From assembly GCF_006715165.1 (NCBI RefSeq), contig NZ_VFMS01000001.1, positions 1,612,001 through 1,676,000 on the forward strand: 64,000 nt of DNA, given 5' to 3'. Shown here one piece after another: positions 9,041 through 59,408 of the stretch. A program made the translations under genes and the position numbers. The notes under the pieces are model-generated. The model saw nothing but the letters and a program-made list of their open reading frames with translations. It was not told where the DNA came from and did no database searches. The first letter of the stretch is position 1. Every line of letters begins with the position of its first letter. This DNA comes from Arthrobacter sp. SLBN-122. GTDB lineage: Bacteria > Actinomycetota > Actinomycetes > Actinomycetales > Micrococcaceae.

Positions 9041-9461
9041 TTAAACAGGTTACGGGCGGGGGCGCCTGCGTTGCGCTGTGTGTCTGTGTACTACGACGGG
9101 GGTTGGTGTGCTTGCTGGGTGAGGCGAGGGATAAGCCTCGGCCTGTGAATAGCAATGACACTGAAGCCTTTTGATAGACCGGCAATAAGCCGGTGGCGGG
9201 TGTGGATTGCCCACCGATGCCAGCACTGATAGAGCCGGCTCTGGAACCGTGAGTTTCGAAGCAGGTGAGTCCGAGGCGGTCCCACCGACAGCCCCGTCCT
9301 GGCGAGCGCGTTCCTAGGTCTTCACAAAAGGATTTACTTGAAGAGCTGCCCTGTAGCTGATCGTTTTCGCAGGTGAGCCGGACAGTATGATCGTAAATGA
9401 ACCTAAGCGGGGAACGACTTATCACTTTCCGGACTTCAGCCCGGCACAAAGGGGAGCACTT
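9041..9461. other. Divergent intergenic region between metH and the ATPase operon
   Basis: About 420 bases without a supported gene if the TTG at 9462 is the ATPase start. It contains the structured block at 9106-9335 and must hold the promoters of metH (minus) and the ATPase operon (plus). A strong Shine-Dalgarno sequence AAAGGGGAG at 9448-9456 sits just ahead of the TTG. Confidence 0.6.
9106..9335 (+). ncRNA. Structured non-coding block, candidate 5' fragment of a group II intron
   Basis: Short helices suggest a folded RNA on the plus strand. From 9121, GAGGC pairs with GCCTC (9135-9139). ACCGGC (9178-9183) pairs with GCCGGT (9189-9194). GCCAG (9219-9223) can close a multibranch domain with CTGGC (9299-9303). 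Inside it lie the palindrome AGAGCCGGCTCT, a GGAAC-cgtga-GTTTC hairpin that needs a G-U pair on the plus strand, and GGTG...CACC. The block starts with GTGTGC at 9106, matching the GUGYG 5' boundary of group II introns, and its general look resembles domain I of bacterial introns. No reverse transcriptase or 3' domains follow, so it would be a truncated copy. Alternatives are an unknown structured RNA or leader. Confidence 0.35.
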
Positions 9462-11315
9462 TTGTACATTCAGAGAGTCCAGGTTGAGACGGAGGGGTTC
9501 CTATCTGGATTAGATGTTGAATTTTCGCCTGGCTTAAACGTCATAATCGGCGCGCGAGGGACCGGCAAGACCTCCTTAATAGAGCTCATTCGCTACTGCC
9601 TTGGAGCTGGAGCGTTTACTGAAGATGCTGCAAATCGAGGACGTCAGCAGGCCGTGGCGATCCTAGAAGGGGGAGCTGTCACCGTCACTATGCGGGATGG
9701 TGACTCTTCATTTCTTGTGACGCGATCAGCTTCAGGTCATGTGACCACCACAGGGACAAGGCAACCTACGTGCACCGTTCTCGCCCAAAATGAAGTGGAG
9801 GCAGTGGGCGCCCAAGCGGCGGGCAGACTTCACCTCATTGACCGATTCAGGGCCAATCGAGATGAGACAGCAAAGATGATGAGCAATCTGCTGGCTCATG
9901 TCCGGAGCTTAACGACCGAGATACTGGCCATCCTCAATGACGGCGGCCGATTGTCGGAACAGATAGCCTCGATGTCCGCTGTCACGGCAGATCTTGATGA
10001 GGCAAGGAAGCACCAGCAGCAGCTACTGGATAACGCCCGGGCTACAGAGGATCAGCAGCTCCGGTTGCTGTCGCTCCAACAAGACAGCCAACGTCTCGCT
10101 CTGCGTGAGTCCGTGGTGGACCAAAGCGAATCAAGTGTTGAATCCTTGGCTGGCGCACTGACTCGTTTAGCTTCCGATGCCTCGTCCGTCCTGCAGACGT
10201 GGCCGGCCGACGACCAAGATGATCCACTGACAGGTGCGCGTTTCCTCCTAGCAGACGTAGAGCGCCTGCTCAACACCTCGTTGACACGGTTGGCAGAGGT
10301 AAGAAACAGCCTGCAGGCTGCACGAAACGAAACGGCGCAGCGCCAAGTCCAGGTAGACGAGGCCAGTCGTCAACTTCGGCAAAGTCTTGAAGAGCTTCAG
10401 GCAGGAATAGGTCTTACCACTCGGCGTGTGGTCGAGCTCGAGGAATATCAAGGTCAGCTTTTCGCACTTCAGAACCGGCTATCTGAACGGACGGACAGAC
10501 TGCGGAGCGTCTCAGCACAACGCGATAGCGTCCAGCTCAAGGCAGAGGAACTCCGTGACCAGGTGTATTCAGATCGCCTTGCAATCGTGCGTGAACTGAA
10601 CCGAACTCTAGCTCCCGCTATCCGCATCAGGCTAGCGAAATCGGAAAATTTGGAGGCATATCGCTCTACCATCGTCGCAGCTCTGAGAGGTAGCGGCCTG
10701 CATTACAACTCGCTTGCGCCGATGCTCGCCCAAGCAGCAGCTCCTCACGAAGTCGTTAGTTGGGTTGAGCAAAACAACGCGACTGAACTTGGCGGCGCCA
10801 TCGGTATTTCACCTGACAGAGCCTCCTCCATTATCGCCGCCCTCAGAGCGGGAGGCACCCCTGACATCATCGCCAGCACTGTTGAGGACGGAGTTACGCT
10901 TGAACTCCTTGACGGGCAAGAGTTCAAGGCGAGCGACCGCCTCTCTATTGGGCAAAGATGTACAACAGTTCTACCCATACTTCTTGGTCATCATGGCGAC
11001 CCCCTCATTGTTGACCAACCCGAAGACCATCTAGACAATGCCTTCATCGCTTCTACATTAGTCTCAGCCCTGCAAAGCCGCCAGCCTAGCGACCAGTTTA
11101 TTTTTTCTTCCCACAATGCCAATATCCCTGTGCTCGGAGGAGCAAATCGCGTACTTGTGATGAACTCCGATGGAGACCGCGGTTATCTCACCCATGCGGG
11201 TGACTTGGACGCGCCAGAAATTATTGCGGCCGTCACTGACATCATGGAGGGAGGCGAACGAGCGTTTGCAACTCGTGCCGCTTTCTATCGCAATGAAACG
11301 GTGAGCCGTCGTTGA
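9462..11315 (+). CDS. SMC/RecN-like AAA ATPase of a three-gene signalling operon
   Basis: I place the start at TTG 9462 (617 residues): AAAGGGGAG lies 5 bases upstream, and the protein then opens with YIQRVQVETEGFLSGL, the usual first strand of SMC-like ATPases. The frame is open from an ATG at 9387, giving 642 residues. Walker A is GARGTGKTS (30-38). A long heptad-rich coiled coil follows (roughly 150-390). Then come an ABC-type signature LSIGQRCTT, Walker B LIVDQPEDHLDN and an H-loop FSSHNANIP. This C-terminal set resembles stand-alone ATPases found in phage-defence loci (TrlF-type and relatives). The stop overlaps the next gene, so all three genes are coupled. Codon use and GC are clearly lower than in flanking genes, which suggests horizontal acquisition. 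A sensor or DNA-tracking role is inference. Confidence 0.85.
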   Translation: MYIQRVQVETEGFLSGLDVEFSPGLNVIIGARGTGKTSLIELIRYCLGAGAFTEDAANRGRQQAVAILEGGAVTVTMRDGDSSFLVTRSASGHVTTTGTRQPTCTVLAQNEVEAVGAQAAGRLHLIDRFRANRDETAKMMSNLLAHVRSLTTEILAILNDGGRLSEQIASMSAVTADLDEARKHQQQLLDNARATEDQQLRLLSLQQDSQRLALRESVVDQSESSVESLAGALTRLASDASSVLQTWPADDQDDPLTGARFLLADVERLLNTSLTRLAEVRNSLQAARNETAQRQVQVDEASRQLRQSLEELQAGIGLTTRRVVELEEYQGQLFALQNRLSERTDRLRSVSAQRDSVQLKAEELRDQVYSDRLAIVRELNRTLAPAIRIRLAKSENLEAYRSTIVAALRGSGLHYNSLAPMLAQAAAPHEVVSWVEQNNATELGGAIGISPDRASSIIAALRAGGTPDIIASTVEDGVTLELLDGQEFKASDRLSIGQRCTTVLPILLGHHGDPLIVDQPEDHLDNAFIASTLVSALQSRQPSDQFIFSSHNANIPVLGGANRVLVMNSDGDRGYLTHAGDLDAPEIIAAVTDIMEGGERAFATRAAFYRNETVSRR

Positions 11316-12217
11316 GCATAGATGAAGGATTTGCGTTGCTAGCGTCCCCCCGCTCGAGCGACCGCCTAAAAGGCGCCCGTCTTCTTGCAAAGTCAAAAGA
11401 TTTTTCAAAGCTTCCCGAACTTCGCCAATATGAACGCCAAGAAGCCGACTCGTGGGTGCGGCATACCTTGGCGCGCGTCATCGGCAAATGGCAAGCTAGT
11501 ACAGCCATACCGGATTCAGATGAAAGTTGGATATCCCCCAAGGCGGAGTCCGAGTTAGAGGATATCCGGTCCCAAGCAATACAGAATGTAACTCAAACGC
11601 TACTCCACGAGATGCACCCTCTCTTGGCAGACATCTCTGCAGCAGTAGCCGCCGAGATCTCCCTCCCCTTCGCCGGCAGCCGATCTGCTGCGGCTTTGGC
11701 TAGAACCACTGAGTTTCTTCAAGTTATTCATCGACTTTACGAGGCATCTGCGTCGGCCAACAATGAAGAGTTTGACCTGTCAAGCCTAATCTTAGAAGTC
11801 ATTCACTACTGCGGATACACCGAGGAGCAAGTACTGGCGACAAGACTCGATCCGGTAATCACCGTCGGCGATCCCGGCCTACTGCGAATCGCGTTACAGA
11901 ATGTGATTAAAAATGCCGTGGAGGCAAGTGAAAAAACTGAAGTGAAAGTTCTCGTTAATTGTGCGGTTACGGACAGTTATTCTTGGGTTGTAGTCCTCGA
12001 CGAAGGAGTTGGATTCCCAGAAGGTCATGAACGCGCTTGGGAACCGGGTATCACAAGCAAGTCGAAAGAGACTCACTTTGGATGGGGGCTTCCCATAACG
12101 AAACGCGCCGTCGCCTCACTCGGTGGGACTATCAAACTGGTACCTCGAGAACATAGGGGAATATCGTGTGAGATCCGCTGGCCCTTAGTGGAGATCGTCG
12201 GAAAGGAAACTACGTGA
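11312..12217 (+). CDS. Histidine kinase-like protein with HEAT-like N-terminus and GHKL ATPase domain
   Basis: The gene begins with TTG at 11312 inside a TTGA overlap with the ATPase stop, implying translational coupling. No membrane segment or periplasmic sensor is present, so the kinase is cytoplasmic. Residues 1-65 form a helical stretch that looks like one HEAT repeat (ASPRSSDRLKGARLLAKS, then RQEADSWVRHTLARVIGKW). A dimerisation/phosphoacceptor helix follows with LHEMHPLL, where H99 is the candidate phosphorylated His (H-E-x-x-P-L pattern). The GHKL domain has the N box QNVIKNAVEA (N201), the G1 box DEGVGFP (230-236) and the G2 box THFGWGLPI. The whole is 301 residues. The next gene encodes a receiver domain, so a phosphorelay within the operon is likely. 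Confidence 0.85.
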   Translation: MSIDEGFALLASPRSSDRLKGARLLAKSKDFSKLPELRQYERQEADSWVRHTLARVIGKWQASTAIPDSDESWISPKAESELEDIRSQAIQNVTQTLLHEMHPLLADISAAVAAEISLPFAGSRSAAALARTTEFLQVIHRLYEASASANNEEFDLSSLILEVIHYCGYTEEQVLATRLDPVITVGDPGLLRIALQNVIKNAVEASEKTEVKVLVNCAVTDSYSWVVVLDEGVGFPEGHERAWEPGITSKSKETHFGWGLPITKRAVASLGGTIKLVPREHRGISCEIRWPLVEIVGKETT

Positions 12218-13614
12218 AGGTTCTGCTTATTGAAGATGAGGACCGAAGCATTCGACTTACGTCAGATGCACTTGCGAGAGTTACAACCGTAACTCCTACC
12301 ATTGCCCGCTACAGAGATGCCGCCTTATCAGCCATCCGTTTCGACGAGTTTGATCTGATTCTTTGTGACTTGCGTATTCCCCCAACCGCAAATAGCTTAG
12401 ATATCTCCGAAGAACATGGGCTCGCGGTTCACTCTGAGGCTAGGACTGTCTGCCCTGGCACTCCCATCATTTTCCTAACAGGATTCGCCACACCTAGCAA
12501 CATCACGGATCAACTGTCGTCGGGAGGAGTCGCGGATATTTACGGATTGAATTCCGTGCCAATGGTGCAGTTGTGCCTGAAGAGTGACTTGGCTCGACTG
12601 GACACACTTCTAAGAGGATTCGCTAAAGCACTGTCCGACCTTGACGACTGGTGCAAGGTGGAATCAACTCTCACAATCTCTCCCATGATGGCGAGGGCGG
12701 TGCGCTGTTACGCGAAATCCATCGGTAGTAGATCAGCTGCGGTAACACCACTACAGGGATTATCGGGGGCCGAAGTAGCCACAGCTCGATTTACCGACAC
12801 ACATGGCGGAATCGCTTCCGTATTTGTAAAAGTATTGGATTTCGAATCAGCTCGTGATGAGCTCAATCGCTACCACCAATTTGCCGGCAATCGACTGGAG
12901 CCTGGCTTCTTCGCCCCAGCCCTCACTGCTACCTTTAGCGGCTTACGCAAAGAGGCGGCCCTATTTTCCACCCTCGCAGGCAATAGCTACCGCTCCATCT
13001 TCCAGGTCCTCAGGGAAAGCCCGGAAGCTGGGGCCGAGATAGTCCGACGACTGCAAGTGGGAATGGAGGCCTGGCACAGTCCGACCGTTCCCCATTCCTT
13101 TTCCCTTGCCGATCTTCGACGGGCCCGCATTCCTGACGAAAAGCTTCCCGACGGCATTGCTGCACTGCCTGAGCTTCTCGCGCTAGAAGAAATCTCAGTT
13201 GAAGTCAGGACGGGCGTTATTCATGGAGACCTTCATGGCGAGAACGTCCTAGTGAATGCAAACGGTGGTCCCATGCTGATTGACTTCGGTGATTTGGGCG
13301 TCGGGACCTCTGCCTCAGATCCGATCACACTAGAATTGAGCGTTCTCTTCCACTTGCAGGGACCAGCCCGAGGGTCAGGATGGCCCCAACCCAGAAACCT
13401 TGAATCGTGGTGGGATATAGACCGCTTTGCCGAGGGAGCTCCCCATGAGGAGTTTCTTAGGGCTTGCCGATCGTGGGCTTCAAGTATTGATACTGAAGCC
13501 GCGATCTGCGCGATCGCTTATTCGCATGCGCTACGGCAACTGAAGTATGACGATGTAGATCCAGATATAGCGGTAGCGATAGCAGCTTCAGCTGCTTCGT
13601 TTCTTACTCGATAA
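12214..13614 (+). CDS. Response-regulator receiver fused to an APH/choline-kinase-like phosphotransferase domain
   Basis: The start is GTG 12214 in a GTGA overlap with the kinase gene. Residues 1-120 form a CheY-like receiver: MKVLLIEDED gives the acidic pair E7/D8, D52 in LILCDLRIP is the phosphoacceptor, and T89 lies in FLTGFA. The conserved Lys of strand beta-5 is missing (ADIYGLNSV), so phosphorylation behaviour may be unusual. Residues 190-460 look like a protein-kinase-fold phosphotransferase of the aminoglycoside/choline kinase group: VIHGDLHGENVLV supplies D339 and N344, and LIDFGD supplies the metal-binding D357. I know no standard regulator with this architecture; the kinase-like half is the plausible effector or output. 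The substrate, a small molecule or protein, cannot be read from the sequence. Confidence 0.82.
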   Translation: MKVLLIEDEDRSIRLTSDALARVTTVTPTIARYRDAALSAIRFDEFDLILCDLRIPPTANSLDISEEHGLAVHSEARTVCPGTPIIFLTGFATPSNITDQLSSGGVADIYGLNSVPMVQLCLKSDLARLDTLLRGFAKALSDLDDWCKVESTLTISPMMARAVRCYAKSIGSRSAAVTPLQGLSGAEVATARFTDTHGGIASVFVKVLDFESARDELNRYHQFAGNRLEPGFFAPALTATFSGLRKEAALFSTLAGNSYRSIFQVLRESPEAGAEIVRRLQVGMEAWHSPTVPHSFSLADLRRARIPDEKLPDGIAALPELLALEEISVEVRTGVIHGDLHGENVLVNANGGPMLIDFGDLGVGTSASDPITLELSVLFHLQGPARGSGWPQPRNLESWWDIDRFAEGAPHEEFLRACRSWASSIDTEAAICAIAYSHALRQLKYDDVDPDIAVAIAASAASFLTR

Positions 13615-13733: not shown

Positions 13734-14724
13734 CTAAGACTCCGCCGCAGGCGCCGCGAACTGGGCCTCGTACAGCCGCGCGTAAGCCCCGCCAGCGGCC
13801 AACAGCGATGCGTGCGTGCCCTGCTCCACGATCTGCCCGGCTTCCATCACCAGGATGAGGTCGGCGTCGCGGATTGTGGAGAGGCGGTGCGCGATGACAA
13901 TGGACGGACGTCCGGTCGGACCGCAGCGCGCTCATCGCCTTCTGAACCAGCACCTCGGTCCGCGTATCCACCGATGACGTCGCCTCATCCAGGATCAGCA
14001 CCTAAGGCCGGGCCAGGAAAGCCCGCGCAATCGTCAGCAGCTGCTTCTCCCCCGCCGACGCGTTCGCGCCCTCGTCATCCAGCACGGTGTCGTACCCGTC
14101 CGGCAGCGACCGGACGAACCGGTCCACGTACATCGCCCGCGCAGCCTCAAGGATCTCGTCCTCGGTGGCAGCGGGCTGGCCGTACGCGACGTCGTCCCGA
14201 ACAGCCACTTATCCTGCCGCCCCATCCCACACGCGAGCGGAGCTCACGCGGCGGCGCCGGTGACGTCCACGCTATCGAGCGTTATCCGTCCGGCGTCCAG
14301 CTCGTAAACCGCATCATCAGATTCACCAACGTGGTCTTGCCCGCCCCGGTGGGTCCCACGATCGCCTCCGTCTGCCCTTGGTCGGCCACGAGGGAAAGCC
14401 CGGAGATCAGCGGGTTATCAGCCGAACACGAGAACGACACATCCGCAAACACCAGCCGCCCGCGCCCAAAAACCGGCGAAGCAGACGCGGCAGGCTCCGC
14501 AGACTCCCCGTCCTCATCCAGCAGGTCAAACCACCTGCTCGGCAGAAGCCACCCCGGACTACAGCACGTTGGCCATGGACCCAGGCTGCGCCAGAGGCAT
14601 GGTGAACTGCCGCGAGTACTGGATGAATGCCTGCACATCGCCCAGCTGCCTGGCCCCAGACGCCACCTGCGGCCCGCCGACCATGGCGATCCCCATGTAC
14701 ACCAGGTTCCCCAAGGAACGTCAT
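13734..14724 (-). pseudogene. Decayed ABC exporter (MsbA/multidrug type), N-terminally truncated
   Basis: Read on the minus strand, pieces of the last membrane-domain segment (VYMGIAMVGG, then FIQYSRQFTMPLAQPG) lead into a nucleotide-binding domain with FDLLDEDGE, Walker A IVGPTGAGKTTLVN, a Q-loop-to-signature region ([20 protein letters not shown]) and Walker [14 protein letters not shown]. The reading breaks repeatedly: frameshifts near 14560-14600 and 14220-14280, an in-frame TAG at the codon before VLILDEA (about 14002) and another shift near 13900 that puts the AHRLSTI-like H-loop out of frame. The membrane domain upstream of 14724 is gone. An exporter of this class would be an ATP-driven efflux pump; this copy cannot make a functional protein. 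Confidence 0.85.
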
Positions 14725-14752: not shown

Positions 14753-15793
14753 TTACTTGCTGTCTCCGGGAACCCATCCCAAAGCCGGCCCCAGCTTCCC
14801 CGCCATGTCCGTCAGGATCTGGACGTAGTCCTCGTGGTCGAAGCTAAAGGGCAGCGCGAACGCCACCTCATCGACTTCTTGGAATCCCGCGCGCGCATAG
14901 AGCTGCTCGGCGATCTTCTCGCTCGTCCCAATCAGATCAGCTGCGAACAGCATGCCCCGCGGCCCCTGCTGAGAAGCGGTGCGGGGAGTGCGTTCATCCA
15001 CATACCGCTGGTACTTCTCCCGCTGGGTCGGCGTCGCGGAGTCGGTAGGGATCACCACCAAGCCCTGCGACACCCGGGCCGCAGCATGCCCGGAGGCAGC
15101 AGCCGCTTCGCGGAACGCCCGGATCTGCGACTGCTGGACAAGAGCGAAGTCCGGTTCCTGGTCCTTGTCCGGGAAGATCACGCTGCTGGAGAGCAGGTTG
15201 AACCCGTTGGCCCCGGCCCATACCGCTGACTTCGTACTGCCGGCCCCGTACCAAAGCCGCTCCCGCAGGCCGGGCGAGTGCGGCTCCACGCCGTTGGAGA
15301 ACTCCTCCACCACTCCTTGCTTGCCGGAGAATTCACGCACCGGCTCCCCGGCCACCAACCGCGCAAACCGCTCCACCCGGGCGTAGCTGAAGTCCTCCAC
15401 GTCCGCGGTATCCGGGTACAACTCATGCTTCACCGTGTCGTACTGCATCGGCTCACCCACGCTCACTCCGGGATTGATGCGGCCTCCGGCGAGCAAATCC
15501 ACCGTGGCCAGGTCCTCGGCCAGGCGCAACGGGTTCTCCCAACCCAGCGGAGTCACAGCAGTGCCCAGCTCAATGCGGGAGGTGCGCTGACTCGCGGCAG
15601 CCATCACCGCCACAGGGGAAGAGATCCCGAACTGCAGGTGCCGGTGGCGCAGCCAGGCGCTGTCGAACCCCAGCCGCTCCCCCAGTTCAATGATCTGCAG
15701 CGTCGACTCATGGCCGGCAGCTGGGTCAAGAGGATCGAACAGCCCAATCGTGAGAAACCCAAGCTTGCGCAAAGGACGGTCGGGCTGCGGCAT
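14753..15793 (-). CDS. LLM-class flavin-dependent oxidoreductase (luciferase-like monooxygenase)
   Basis: The protein is 346 residues and starts at an ATG preceded by GGAGGAAG. It has the luciferase-like TIM barrel: KLGFLTIGLFDP at the start, ERLGFDSAWLRHRHLQFG, then the family motif RIELGTAVTPLGWENPLRLAEDLATVDLLAGGR. A substrate-variable segment precedes the last helices. Members use reduced FMN or F420 to oxidise small organic compounds. Context is uninformative: a dead ABC exporter lies downstream and an alpha/beta hydrolase is divergent upstream. I cannot decide the cofactor or substrate. Confidence 0.85.
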   Translation of the reverse strand: MPQPDRPLRKLGFLTIGLFDPLDPAAGHESTLQIIELGERLGFDSAWLRHRHLQFGISSPVAVMAAASQRTSRIELGTAVTPLGWENPLRLAEDLATVDLLAGGRINPGVSVGEPMQYDTVKHELYPDTADVEDFSYARVERFARLVAGEPVREFSGKQGVVEEFSNGVEPHSPGLRERLWYGAGSTKSAVWAGANGFNLLSSSVIFPDKDQEPDFALVQQSQIRAFREAAAASGHAAARVSQGLVVIPTDSATPTQREKYQRYVDERTPRTASQQGPRGMLFAADLIGTSEKIAEQLYARAGFQEVDEVAFALPFSFDHEDYVQILTDMAGKLGPALGWVPGDSK

Positions 15794-15967: not shown

Positions 15968-16945
15968 ATGTCACTGCAGGAAATCGAGTTCACGTCCGCC
16001 AACGGCCGGGACACCATCCAGGCGTGGGTCTACGAGCCGATCGGCCAGCCCAAGGCAATCGTGCAGCTGATCCACGGGCTCGGCGAGCACTCCCGCCGCT
16101 ACCTCCACCTCATCTCCACCCTGGTGGACGCGGGATTCATCGTGGTGGCGGGCGACCACTCCGGCCACGGTCGCACGGCGATGCAGCAGGGCACCTGGGG
16201 CGACGCCGGAGAGGATGCCGCCGGCGTGGTGGTTGCCGACGAGGTCACCCTCCAGGCCAAGGCCAGGGAGGCGCTCCCCTCGCTTCCCTACGTGGTGTTC
16301 GGCCACAGCTGGGGATCGATGATTGCGCGCGGCATGGCCGTGGACCCGCGGACGCAGCTGTCCGGCCTGATCCTCTGCGGAATCGCCGCCCAGATGCGCG
16401 GCATCGAGAAAATGGTCGACCGGCCGGAACTGGCGCGGCTTGCCTCCGGCGAGCGCGCTGCGGAGCCCGCACCCCAGGAGCTGGTGGCCCAGTTGTTCGA
16501 CGGCTTCCTGGGCCGCTTCGGCGAGGGCGCCGGCCCCACCGCCTGGGTGGCGCTGGACGCAGACGTGGTCGCCGACCACGGCAGGGACGCCTTCAACAAC
16601 TTCGGCGCACCCCTGAGCGCGCGGTTCCTCCAGGGCTTCGTGGACCTCTACGACCAGGTCACCTCCGACGACTGGTACAAACAGCTCCCCGCAGAACTCC
16701 CCGTCCTGATCCTCGCCGGCGACCAGGACCCCGTGACCAACTACGGCGAGGGCGCGTATCACGTGGCCAACCGCCTGGCGGATTCGGGCCACGCGGACGT
16801 CCGCACCCGCGTCTTCCCCGGCGTCCGGCACGAGGTACACAACGAACCCACCACCCGCGCCGAGACGGAGCGCGAGACGGTCGAGTTCATCCAGCGGGTC
16901 GCGCACCAGCGGCAGGACTCCCCCACACCACCAGCCACAGCCTGA
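15968..16945 (+). CDS. Alpha/beta hydrolase (monoacylglycerol lipase / serine aminopeptidase S33-like)
   Basis: This 325-residue protein has LIHGLGEHSRRY (oxyanion-hole loop), the nucleophile elbow GHSWGS (S114), the acid in AGDQDPVT (D254) and the catalytic His in VRHEVHNEP (H288). The layout matches the Hydrolase_4/monoglyceride-lipase group, cytoplasmic esterases acting on lipid or other carboxylic esters. GGAGG lies just ahead of the ATG. No signal peptide is seen. Its stop codon begins a repeat-like terminator region, and the neighbouring deaminase frame on the opposite strand runs into its 3' end. Confidence 0.9.
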   Translation: MSLQEIEFTSANGRDTIQAWVYEPIGQPKAIVQLIHGLGEHSRRYLHLISTLVDAGFIVVAGDHSGHGRTAMQQGTWGDAGEDAAGVVVADEVTLQAKAREALPSLPYVVFGHSWGSMIARGMAVDPRTQLSGLILCGIAAQMRGIEKMVDRPELARLASGERAAEPAPQELVAQLFDGFLGRFGEGAGPTAWVALDADVVADHGRDAFNNFGAPLSARFLQGFVDLYDQVTSDDWYKQLPAELPVLILAGDQDPVTNYGEGAYHVANRLADSGHADVRTRVFPGVRHEVHNEPTTRAETERETVEFIQRVAHQRQDSPTPPATA

Positions 16946-43695: not shown

Positions 43696-43814
43696 TGTCC
43701 GGCGGTGACCTACTCTCCCACACCCTCCCGGGTGCAGTACCATCGGCGCTGTGGGTCTTAGCTTCCGGGTTCGGAATGGGACCGGGCGTTTCCCCCACGC
43801 TATGACCGCCGTAA
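43696..43814 (-). rRNA. rrf: 5S ribosomal RNA, operon 1
   Basis: Read on the minus strand it starts ttacggcggtcatagcg, carries cccggtcccattccgaac and closes with gtcaccgccggaca, which pairs with the start. Ends are set to within a few bases by the terminal helix. Confidence 0.93.
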
Positions 43815-43979
43815 CCCTTGTACCCGTCACCAACCCGTGGGGTGGTGTGGGAAGACTTGTGTGGTTACAACATTGTGGTGTTGTTATTCAGTTGTTGGTT
43901 CCTGCCAAAACCCTGGTGTTCGGGGTTGTTGGTTGGGAACCACATAGTGGACGCTAGCAGAGTTTGTATATATCTGTGT

Positions 43980-49152
<5,173 letters not shown>

Positions 49153-53944: not shown

Positions 53945-54063
53945 TGTCCGGCGGTGACCTACTCTCCCACACCCTCCCGGGTGCAGTACCATCGGCGCTG
54001 TGGGTCTTAGCTTCCGGGTTCGGAATGGGACCGGGCGTTTCCCCCACGCTATGACCGCCGTAA
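53945..54063 (-). rRNA. rrf: 5S ribosomal RNA, operon 2
   Basis: Identical to the operon 1 copy over the gene as far as I could compare. The offset to that copy is 10,249 bases, 7 less than for 23S and 16S, because the 23S-5S spacers differ in length. Confidence 0.93.
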
Positions 54064-54235
54064 CCCTTGTACCCGTCACCAACCCGTGGGGTGGTGTGGG
54101 AAGACTTGTGTGGTTACAACAATTGTGGTGTTGTTATTCAGTTGTGTTGGTTCCGTGCAACCATTCCCCTGGTGTTGGGGGTTGTTGGTTGGGAACCACA
54201 TAGTGGACGCTAGCAGAGTTTGTATATATCTGTGT

Positions 54236-59408
<5,173 letters not shown>

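Follow-up and report, generated by a model that had tools for sequence, protein, structure and literature searches.

Detocs is a defensive two-component system in which a histidine kinase signals to an enzyme effector fused to a receiver domain, with a purine nucleoside phosphorylase among the effectors and a stand-alone receiver acting as a buffer. Other points of comparison are the ATPases of the TrlF family (NCBIfam NF045780) and of NF042955, named "anti-phage protein Ppl", the vWA-MoxR-VMAP ternary systems, and classical two-component systems such as WalK/WalR. Here we describe a module of three genes (A, B and C) that shares features with each of these and differs from each. It lies in Arthrobacter sp. 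SLBN-122 within a 64,000-nucleotide stretch of contig NZ_VFMS01000001.1 (positions 1,612,001 to 1,676,000, called the window here, whose own numbering is used throughout). An earlier sequence-only reading had described the genes as an SMC-like ATPase, a histidine kinase and a receiver-APH kinase fusion, a three-part make-up that the domain matches bear out.

The ATPase encoded by gene A is of the same type as Ppl and TrlF, but it is without their N-terminal PHP part, scores below the cut-offs of both models and is coupled instead to the other two genes; the presumed effector, which is fused in Ppl-type proteins, here appears to reside in the third gene, behind a phosphorelay. As in Detocs, a histidine kinase (B) accompanies a receiver-fused effector (C), with the predicted phospho-donor His99 and phospho-acceptor Asp52 conserved, but C has an APH/TCAD9 domain and no phosphorylase domain, there is no lone receiver among the three genes, and an SMC-type ATPase gene is added. 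Detocs had been put forward from the sequence as a two-component-like example from phage-defence loci; the likeness stands as an analogy only, while effector, sensor and gene set differ. The kinase domain of C matches TCAD9, known from NTP-dependent conflict systems, among them the vWA-MoxR-VMAP ternary systems, but Pfam searches of A, B and C (these three only) gave no vWA or MoxR. For the effectors of vWA ternary systems, Kaur et al. 2020 (PMC7159879) describe receiver domains as well as active kinases of the APH type, and they state that they found no histidine kinase among these effectors. The predicted DHp-like hairpin and GHKL core of B and the intact receiver of C are like those of classical two-component systems, but the output of C is a kinase instead of a DNA-binding domain.

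The trio is unnamed in the family libraries and literature searched. In agreement with the earlier remark that no described system with exactly these three parts was known, none was found in that literature, outside which most subscription papers lie; the accessible portions of PMC10910872, PMC7159879, PMC12839542 and PMC7824862 do not describe the trio.

Conserved co-occurrence of the three genes

The grouping of A, B and C is real: together they are a signalling cassette that is conserved and mobile. Contigs of GTDB representative genomes were scanned with a 30-sequence alignment of C, and 80 of the 102 relatives found were considered. Fifty-one of these, chosen by profile and rank, formed the C-type set; the other 29 (L058–L086) are weak matches to C, mostly to the kinase motif. 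All three genes were found at 42 of the 51 C-type loci, on the same strand and in the order A-B-C in every case, although a frame is split or shortened in five (L009, L032, L038, L047 and L048). The hosts span six phyla, including Actinomycetota, Chloroflexota, Acidobacteriota, Planctomycetota, Campylobacterota, and alpha-, beta- and gammaproteobacteria. Seven of the nine loci without the full trio are partial or broken (L045, L046, L049, L051, L052, L053 and L057, the first two being contigs of one strain with an identical region), and two carry a full-length C (L033 and L039). C was also matched in 47 plasmid records from ten genera, and the trio was present in all seven plasmid regions inspected, one each from seven of these genera, with no further gene constant around it.

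The association also held when approached from gene A. In the 295 family-level and 396 phylum-level genomes searched, all five short ATPases found (E <1e-60) adjoin B and C, which in one genome (G146) are visible only with profiles. Six weaker matches in this search are frames of 869–916 amino acids (aa), a length typical of PHP-type proteins. Genomes carrying the module held six weaker A-type matches, four of which were inspected; the remaining frames are 230 and 423 aa long. Pairwise distances of A, B and C correlate at r 0.84–0.85 over 46 near-full-length loci, values that are not corrected for the kinship of the species. The genes are not found apart in most genomes, an outcome that the earlier reading had named as refuting it, and co-occurrence in unrelated genomes, suggested earlier as a check, was observed in both directions. 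Whatever its role, this is a sharply conserved three-gene system.

Distribution, mobility and insertion site

The cassette is rare, occurring in about 1% of genomes. Searched for by C at E 1e-20, it was found in 2 genomes among 295 from the family and in 3 among 396 from the phylum, counts that each include the source genome and miss G146 at this threshold. The tree of A (37 rows, built by a quick tree search with SH-aLRT support) contains strongly supported groups that unite Campylobacteraceae with Erwinia, Agrobacterium with Enterobacter, and Paraburkholderia with Rheinheimera, and places Phytobacter among Pseudomonas; this branching indicates horizontal transfer of the cassette across classes. 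The Phytobacter copy had no match in E. coli genomes. Of 27 modules, at least 8 have a tyrosine integrase gene (PF00589) no more than 10 kb away, whereas 1.2 would be expected (P ~1e-5, using rounded genome sizes and ignoring contig ends).

Carriage by phage-like DNA was also observed. One lambda-like viral contig (L087:2679-13978) holds the full module between NinB/Q-type and O/P replication genes, on the strand opposite to them. At L036, whose C sequence is that of viral contig L088, there are tail-fibre, moron-type and polymerase genes and a transposase on one side. Seven phage records, all unannotated, have matches to A (25–38% identity), which in two of them cover 99% of its length.

On plasmids the neighbours vary: VapBC on both sides in Leclercia, Fic/VbhA in Rhodococcus, AbiEii in Vibrio, and in Caballeronia a DUF1837 protein with a DEAD helicase, a pair that we take to be Hachiman. 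The Shinella, Klebsiella and Phaeobacter plasmid copies have no comparable clear neighbour; some 3 kb from the Klebsiella copy there is a ParDE-type pair. On the plasmids L104, L107 and L108, toxin-antitoxin or AbiEii-type genes directly adjoin the module or are one transposase away.

The module in the window occupies a low-GC island with metH on one side and a decayed exporter on the other. The metH flank was matched in 29 of 41 genomes of the genus, the source genome included, and at the 19 relatives' loci that were compared the match stops near 9058–9116. At one of them (L125), metH is followed directly by a luciferase-like monooxygenase gene, which in the window lies at 14753–15793, with neither module nor exporter between.

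The ATPase

The Walker A, Walker B and ABC signature motifs of Rad50/SMC proteins are present in A (Table 1), in which residue conservation was scored over the best 120 of 334 protein-search matches. The protein aligns to the TrlF model with E 2.6e-72 over residues 27–634, entering the profile at position 289 of 944, so that only the ATPase part is covered and the N-terminal PHP part is absent. Its 244.9 bits fall below the TrlF cut-off of 350, and its 94.3 bits against Ppl below that model's cut-off of 1000. The four A proteins of modules that were scanned behave alike, scoring 236–272 bits against TrlF from about profile position 290 (288–295) to the end, and, like the long ATPases, they carry an EGGxxAF motif at the C terminus. 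As to the long coiled coil with zinc hook or hinge of Rad50/SMC proteins, A is only 617 aa long and its SMC_N match, 34.8 bits, is under the cut-off of 40; a sequence search of the PDB gave Rad50 structures as the best, weak matches.

The start of A had been placed at ATG 9387, giving 642 aa, but it is probably TTG 9462, giving 617 aa, because residues 3–25 of the longer version are gap positions in over 90% of the 120 homologues, because the ribosome-site-like stretch AAGGGGAG precedes 9462, because most homologues are 610–640 aa long, and because the sequence of L007 differs upstream of this position. L007 (Arthrobacter sp. HMWF013) is a closely related copy at the same metH site, 93.6% identical over the aligned region.

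The histidine kinase and the receiver-kinase fusion

B is predicted to have a histidine kinase fold, in which a DHp-like hairpin with the putative donor His99 precedes a GHKL core. Pfam gave no HisKA model among its matches to B and no membrane or PAS/GAF sensor domain. The N-terminal region is a helical cap that may be HEAT-like: the HEAT_2 match is weak (0.039) and below its cut-off, and a profile of B from 53 homologues matches over residues 6–65 alphaRep designs, which we take to be of the HEAT type. Glu100, next to the predicted donor, was found in 63 of 63 protein-search homologues. Exceptions occur among the loci, with Asn at the G1-box Asp230 in L056 and other residues at Glu100 in L019 and L041.

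C matches the Pfam families APH (5e-15) and TCAD9 (1e-14), whereas Response_reg (1.4e-6, 28.9 bits) is just below its cut-off of 30.2. The AlphaFold2 (AF2) model (pLDDT 94, pTM 0.90) shows a receiver joined to an APH/choline kinase fold. The receiver has the acidic pocket, the acceptor Asp and the conserved Lys (E7, D8, D52, K123). Across the best 120 of 281 protein-search matches, Asp47, Lys123 and D357 are invariant and K206 is conserved in 99%. Small-molecule kinases, among them LicA and MTR kinase, have this kinase fold too. With these residues intact, the kinase of C is supported as an active-looking effector, as had been proposed for the phosphotransferase half.

The relay and C proteins outside the trio

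His99 is present in all 53 trio loci and Asp52 in all 52 in which its column is covered; the loci counted comprise 42 genome contigs, one viral contig, seven plasmids and three genomes, with copies of the window and L036 excluded. The kinase-to-receiver phosphate relay that had been postulated is thus intact as far as residues can tell. Because co-occurrence is conserved and both donor His and acceptor Asp are retained, a wiring that runs from the ATPase through a His-Asp relay to the kinase is well supported as a prediction.

The two full-length C proteins of the C-type set that are without A and B, from a member of the Dehalococcoidia (L033) and a gammaproteobacterium (L039), have Gly and Ser, respectively, at Asp52, and both retain Lys206, His337, Asp339, Asn344 and Asp357. 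These cases, only two in number, fit the idea that the acceptor is lost and the kinase residues are kept when no adjoining B-type histidine kinase was found. In L039 (4965-11197) the degenerate-receiver C-type kinase gene follows genes for an SNF2 helicase and a GHKL ATPase (Pfam HATPase_c_3, labelled MORC-like here), which may perhaps be a second system employing the same effector.

Among the weaker C matches (L058–L086), three loci (L066, L070 and L072) pass the C profile at 1e-20; they are without A and B and retain the acceptor Asp. In two Chloroflexota loci (L070:6192-11939 and L085:5047-10522), a multi-GAF histidine kinase gene just precedes the gene for a receiver-TCAD9 kinase. These pairs resemble the module in setting a receiver-TCAD9 kinase beside a histidine kinase, but their sensor is the multi-GAF kinase and no A-type ATPase was found in either locus at profile E 1e-20. 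Taken together, the loci suggest that receiver-TCAD9 kinases are a wider, unnamed class of kinase-output response regulators.

Predicted function

We consider it moderately probable that the module is a self-contained mobile conflict cassette, most likely directed against phage or other mobile DNA, in which the ATPase, of the Ppl/TrlF type but with no effector fused to it, uses a two-component relay to signal. We infer this defence role because A is kin to Ppl and C to TCAD9, and because the cassette is mobile and carried by phage, and not on the basis of island statistics. The more specific proposal, on which we are evenly divided, is that the module represents an undescribed immune class, with a Ppl/TrlF-type SMC ATPase as sensor and the PHP effector swapped for a His-Asp phosphorelay that acts in trans to activate an APH-fold kinase.

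Signalling in such a system might begin with recognition by A of an invader-related nucleoprotein state, whereupon A would alter the state of B through the HEAT-like cap. B is predicted, from its complete set of conserved catalytic residues and its fold, to autophosphorylate His99 and pass the phosphate to Asp52 of C. The phosphorylated receiver would then activate the APH-type kinase, whose competence is predicted from its own conserved residues and fold, and C might phosphorylate a host or invader molecule so that growth or replication stops.

Several observations weigh against a conflict role or against details of it. Enrichment beside known defence genes, which had been suggested as a check, was not clear: PADLOC matches in the flanks of 20 modules did not plainly outnumber those in 20 control regions. 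The comparison used 170 flank proteins (74+96) and 172 control proteins (79+93) from the same genomes at E 1e-10, and the scans matched 142, 14, 51 and 36 families. Kinds of system were counted among the matches listed, with the protein not specified. Below 1e-50, about six kinds were among the matches listed for modules (type I, type III and type IIG restriction, MkoA, HamC2 and an AriAB-like system), and about four among those listed for controls (type III restriction, HKD+Snf2, HEC-09 and a PD-T4-6-like kinase). An N6-methylase lies within 10 kb of only 1 of 27 modules, and C had no match in 50,697 phage records. The receiver-TCAD9 proteins without A (L066, L070, L072 and L085) mean that C-like effectors are not bound to this ATPase alone. 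A conflict role is probable on the strength of family kinship and mobility, and these are the supports on which it stands.

If the proposal is right, the cassette is a new immune signalling architecture of ATPase sensor, histidine kinase and receiver-driven kinase, spread over six phyla, plasmids and a phage-like contig, and two-component signalling can drive a kinase effector instead of transcription. Prokaryotic immunity would then use phosphorelays as a wiring principle that recurs and can be interchanged. The system should require each of His99, Asp52 and the kinase loop, and the ATPase would be expected to see what Ppl sees.

Alternative explanations

It is possible, if rather unlikely, that the module is a DNA-damage or stress two-component system in which A senses broken or stalled host DNA and C tunes metabolism by phosphorylating a small molecule. 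The resemblance of A to Rad50, seen in AAA_23 and in the weak best PDB sequence matches, would suit such a role, as would the kinase fold that C has in common with LicA and MTR kinase, and one plasmid copy is found near umuD and genes for a Y-family polymerase, Ku and LigD. A prevalence of about 1% in family and phylum, together with transfer across classes, is nevertheless ill-suited to a housekeeping response, and the seven plasmid regions have no other gene in common beside the trio.

The plasmid copies raise a further explanation, which we judge quite unlikely, that the cassette stabilises plasmids or islands by addiction or incompatibility, in which case C would be a conditional toxin that A and B restrain in the service of the element. 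Matches to C on plasmids of ten genera, the complete trio in 7/7 regions inspected, the integrases close by, and the adjoining VapBC (on both sides), Fic/VbhA and AbiEii genes in Leclercia, Rhodococcus and Vibrio agree with this explanation. Chromosomal contigs carry the cassette too, however; a trio of sensor, relay and effector is heavier than a toxin-antitoxin pair and includes no small antitoxin gene, and Ppl, the kin of A, is named as anti-phage.

The APH fold and catalytic loop of C, for which Foldseek returned APH(3')-Ia as the best matches to the model, could also point to a drug-resistance or metabolic kinase operon in which C phosphorylates an antibiotic or a sugar. This is very improbable: C scores very low with drug-specific APH models (capreomycin 15, viomycin 14.3 and APH(3') 13.9 bits, where the cut-offs are 390, 400 and 205), and the drug-resistance reading was dropped on these scores; the constant link to a histidine kinase and an SMC-type ATPase would be left unexplained as well. 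A chance grouping of three unrelated genes in a low-GC patch, conceivable in that each domain is common alone, has next to no probability, being refuted by the co-occurrence data, with adjacency conserved from C and from A and with the correlated distances over 46 loci.

Gene layout and surroundings

The open reading frame (ORF) list of the window gives A, B and C as three plus-strand ORFs spanning 9462–13614 that are translationally coupled, with 4-bp overlaps at 11312 (A/B, TTGA) and 12214 (B/C, GTGA), so the three overlapping genes are present as first read. The lower GC of the module relative to its flanks was likewise correct, the counts of 30 G+C of 60 for 12241–12300 and 41 of 60 for 16261–16320 being exact. 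GC is 0.539 in the module and 0.672 in metH, and at third codon positions (GC3) it is 0.51–0.54 in the module compared with 0.80–0.91 in three neighbouring genes.

Table 1. Features of the three-gene module, in window coordinates.
Feature	Position	Strand	Evidence
Gene A, SMC/Rad50-type ATPase, PHP-less TrlF/Ppl relative	9462..11315	+	ORF; AAA_23 1e-10; NCBIfam TrlF 244.9 bits
A, Walker A motif GARGTGKTS	9549..9575	+	G55, R57, G58, G60, K61, T62, S63 100% in 120 homologues
A, ABC signature LSIGQRC	10941..10961	+	L519, S520, G522, Q523, R524, C525 100% in 120 homologues
A, Walker B region ...DQPEDHLDN	11004..11039	+	D543 to N551 100% in 120 homologues
Gene B, soluble histidine kinase (301 aa), start TTG overlaps stop of A	11312..12217	+	HATPase_c 1.9e-12
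B, N-terminal helical cap, HEAT-like	11312..11503	+	Four helices within 3–64 in model; HEAT_2 0.039
B, DHp-like two-helix hairpin, holds predicted donor His	11546..11746	+	Model helices 79–114, 124–145
B, His99, predicted phospho-donor	11606..11608	+	His in 63/63 homologues, 53/53 module loci
B, ATP-binding (GHKL) domain, N, G1 and G2 boxes	11765..12184	+	N201, G257 100%; D230, G259 98% of 63
Gene C, fusion of receiver and APH/TCAD9 kinase (466 aa), start GTG overlaps stop of B	12214..13614	+	ORF; Pfam; AF2
C, receiver domain	12214..12588	+	
C, Asp52, predicted phospho-acceptor	12367..12369	+	100% in 120 homologues; 52/52 module loci with column covered
C, APH/choline-kinase-fold kinase domain	12676..13611	+	
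C, catalytic loop HGDLHGEN	13222..13245	+	H337, D339, N344 100% in 120 homologues
Possible terminator-like hairpin, end of C	13581..13606	+	Pattern scan only; 4 hairpins in region vs shuffle mean 4.4, no excess

Two claims about the flanks fared differently. The stretch 9110–9386, thought to be a possible intron fragment, is single copy in the genome, and no Rfam family matched it above threshold, the best being SAM-III at E 0.5; the intron assignment was not upheld. Among the loci fetched, this stretch has a full-length match only in L007. A decayed ABC exporter adjoining the module (13740–14640) remains plausible as such: of two short ORFs examined there, one matches positions 3–37 of 137 of ABC_tran only and the other is matchless.

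The source genome is a single contig of 4.47 Mb. Elsewhere in the window, two ribosomal RNA operons lie on the minus strand at 43697–49151 and 53946–59407, about 10.25 kb apart, with near-identical model scores.

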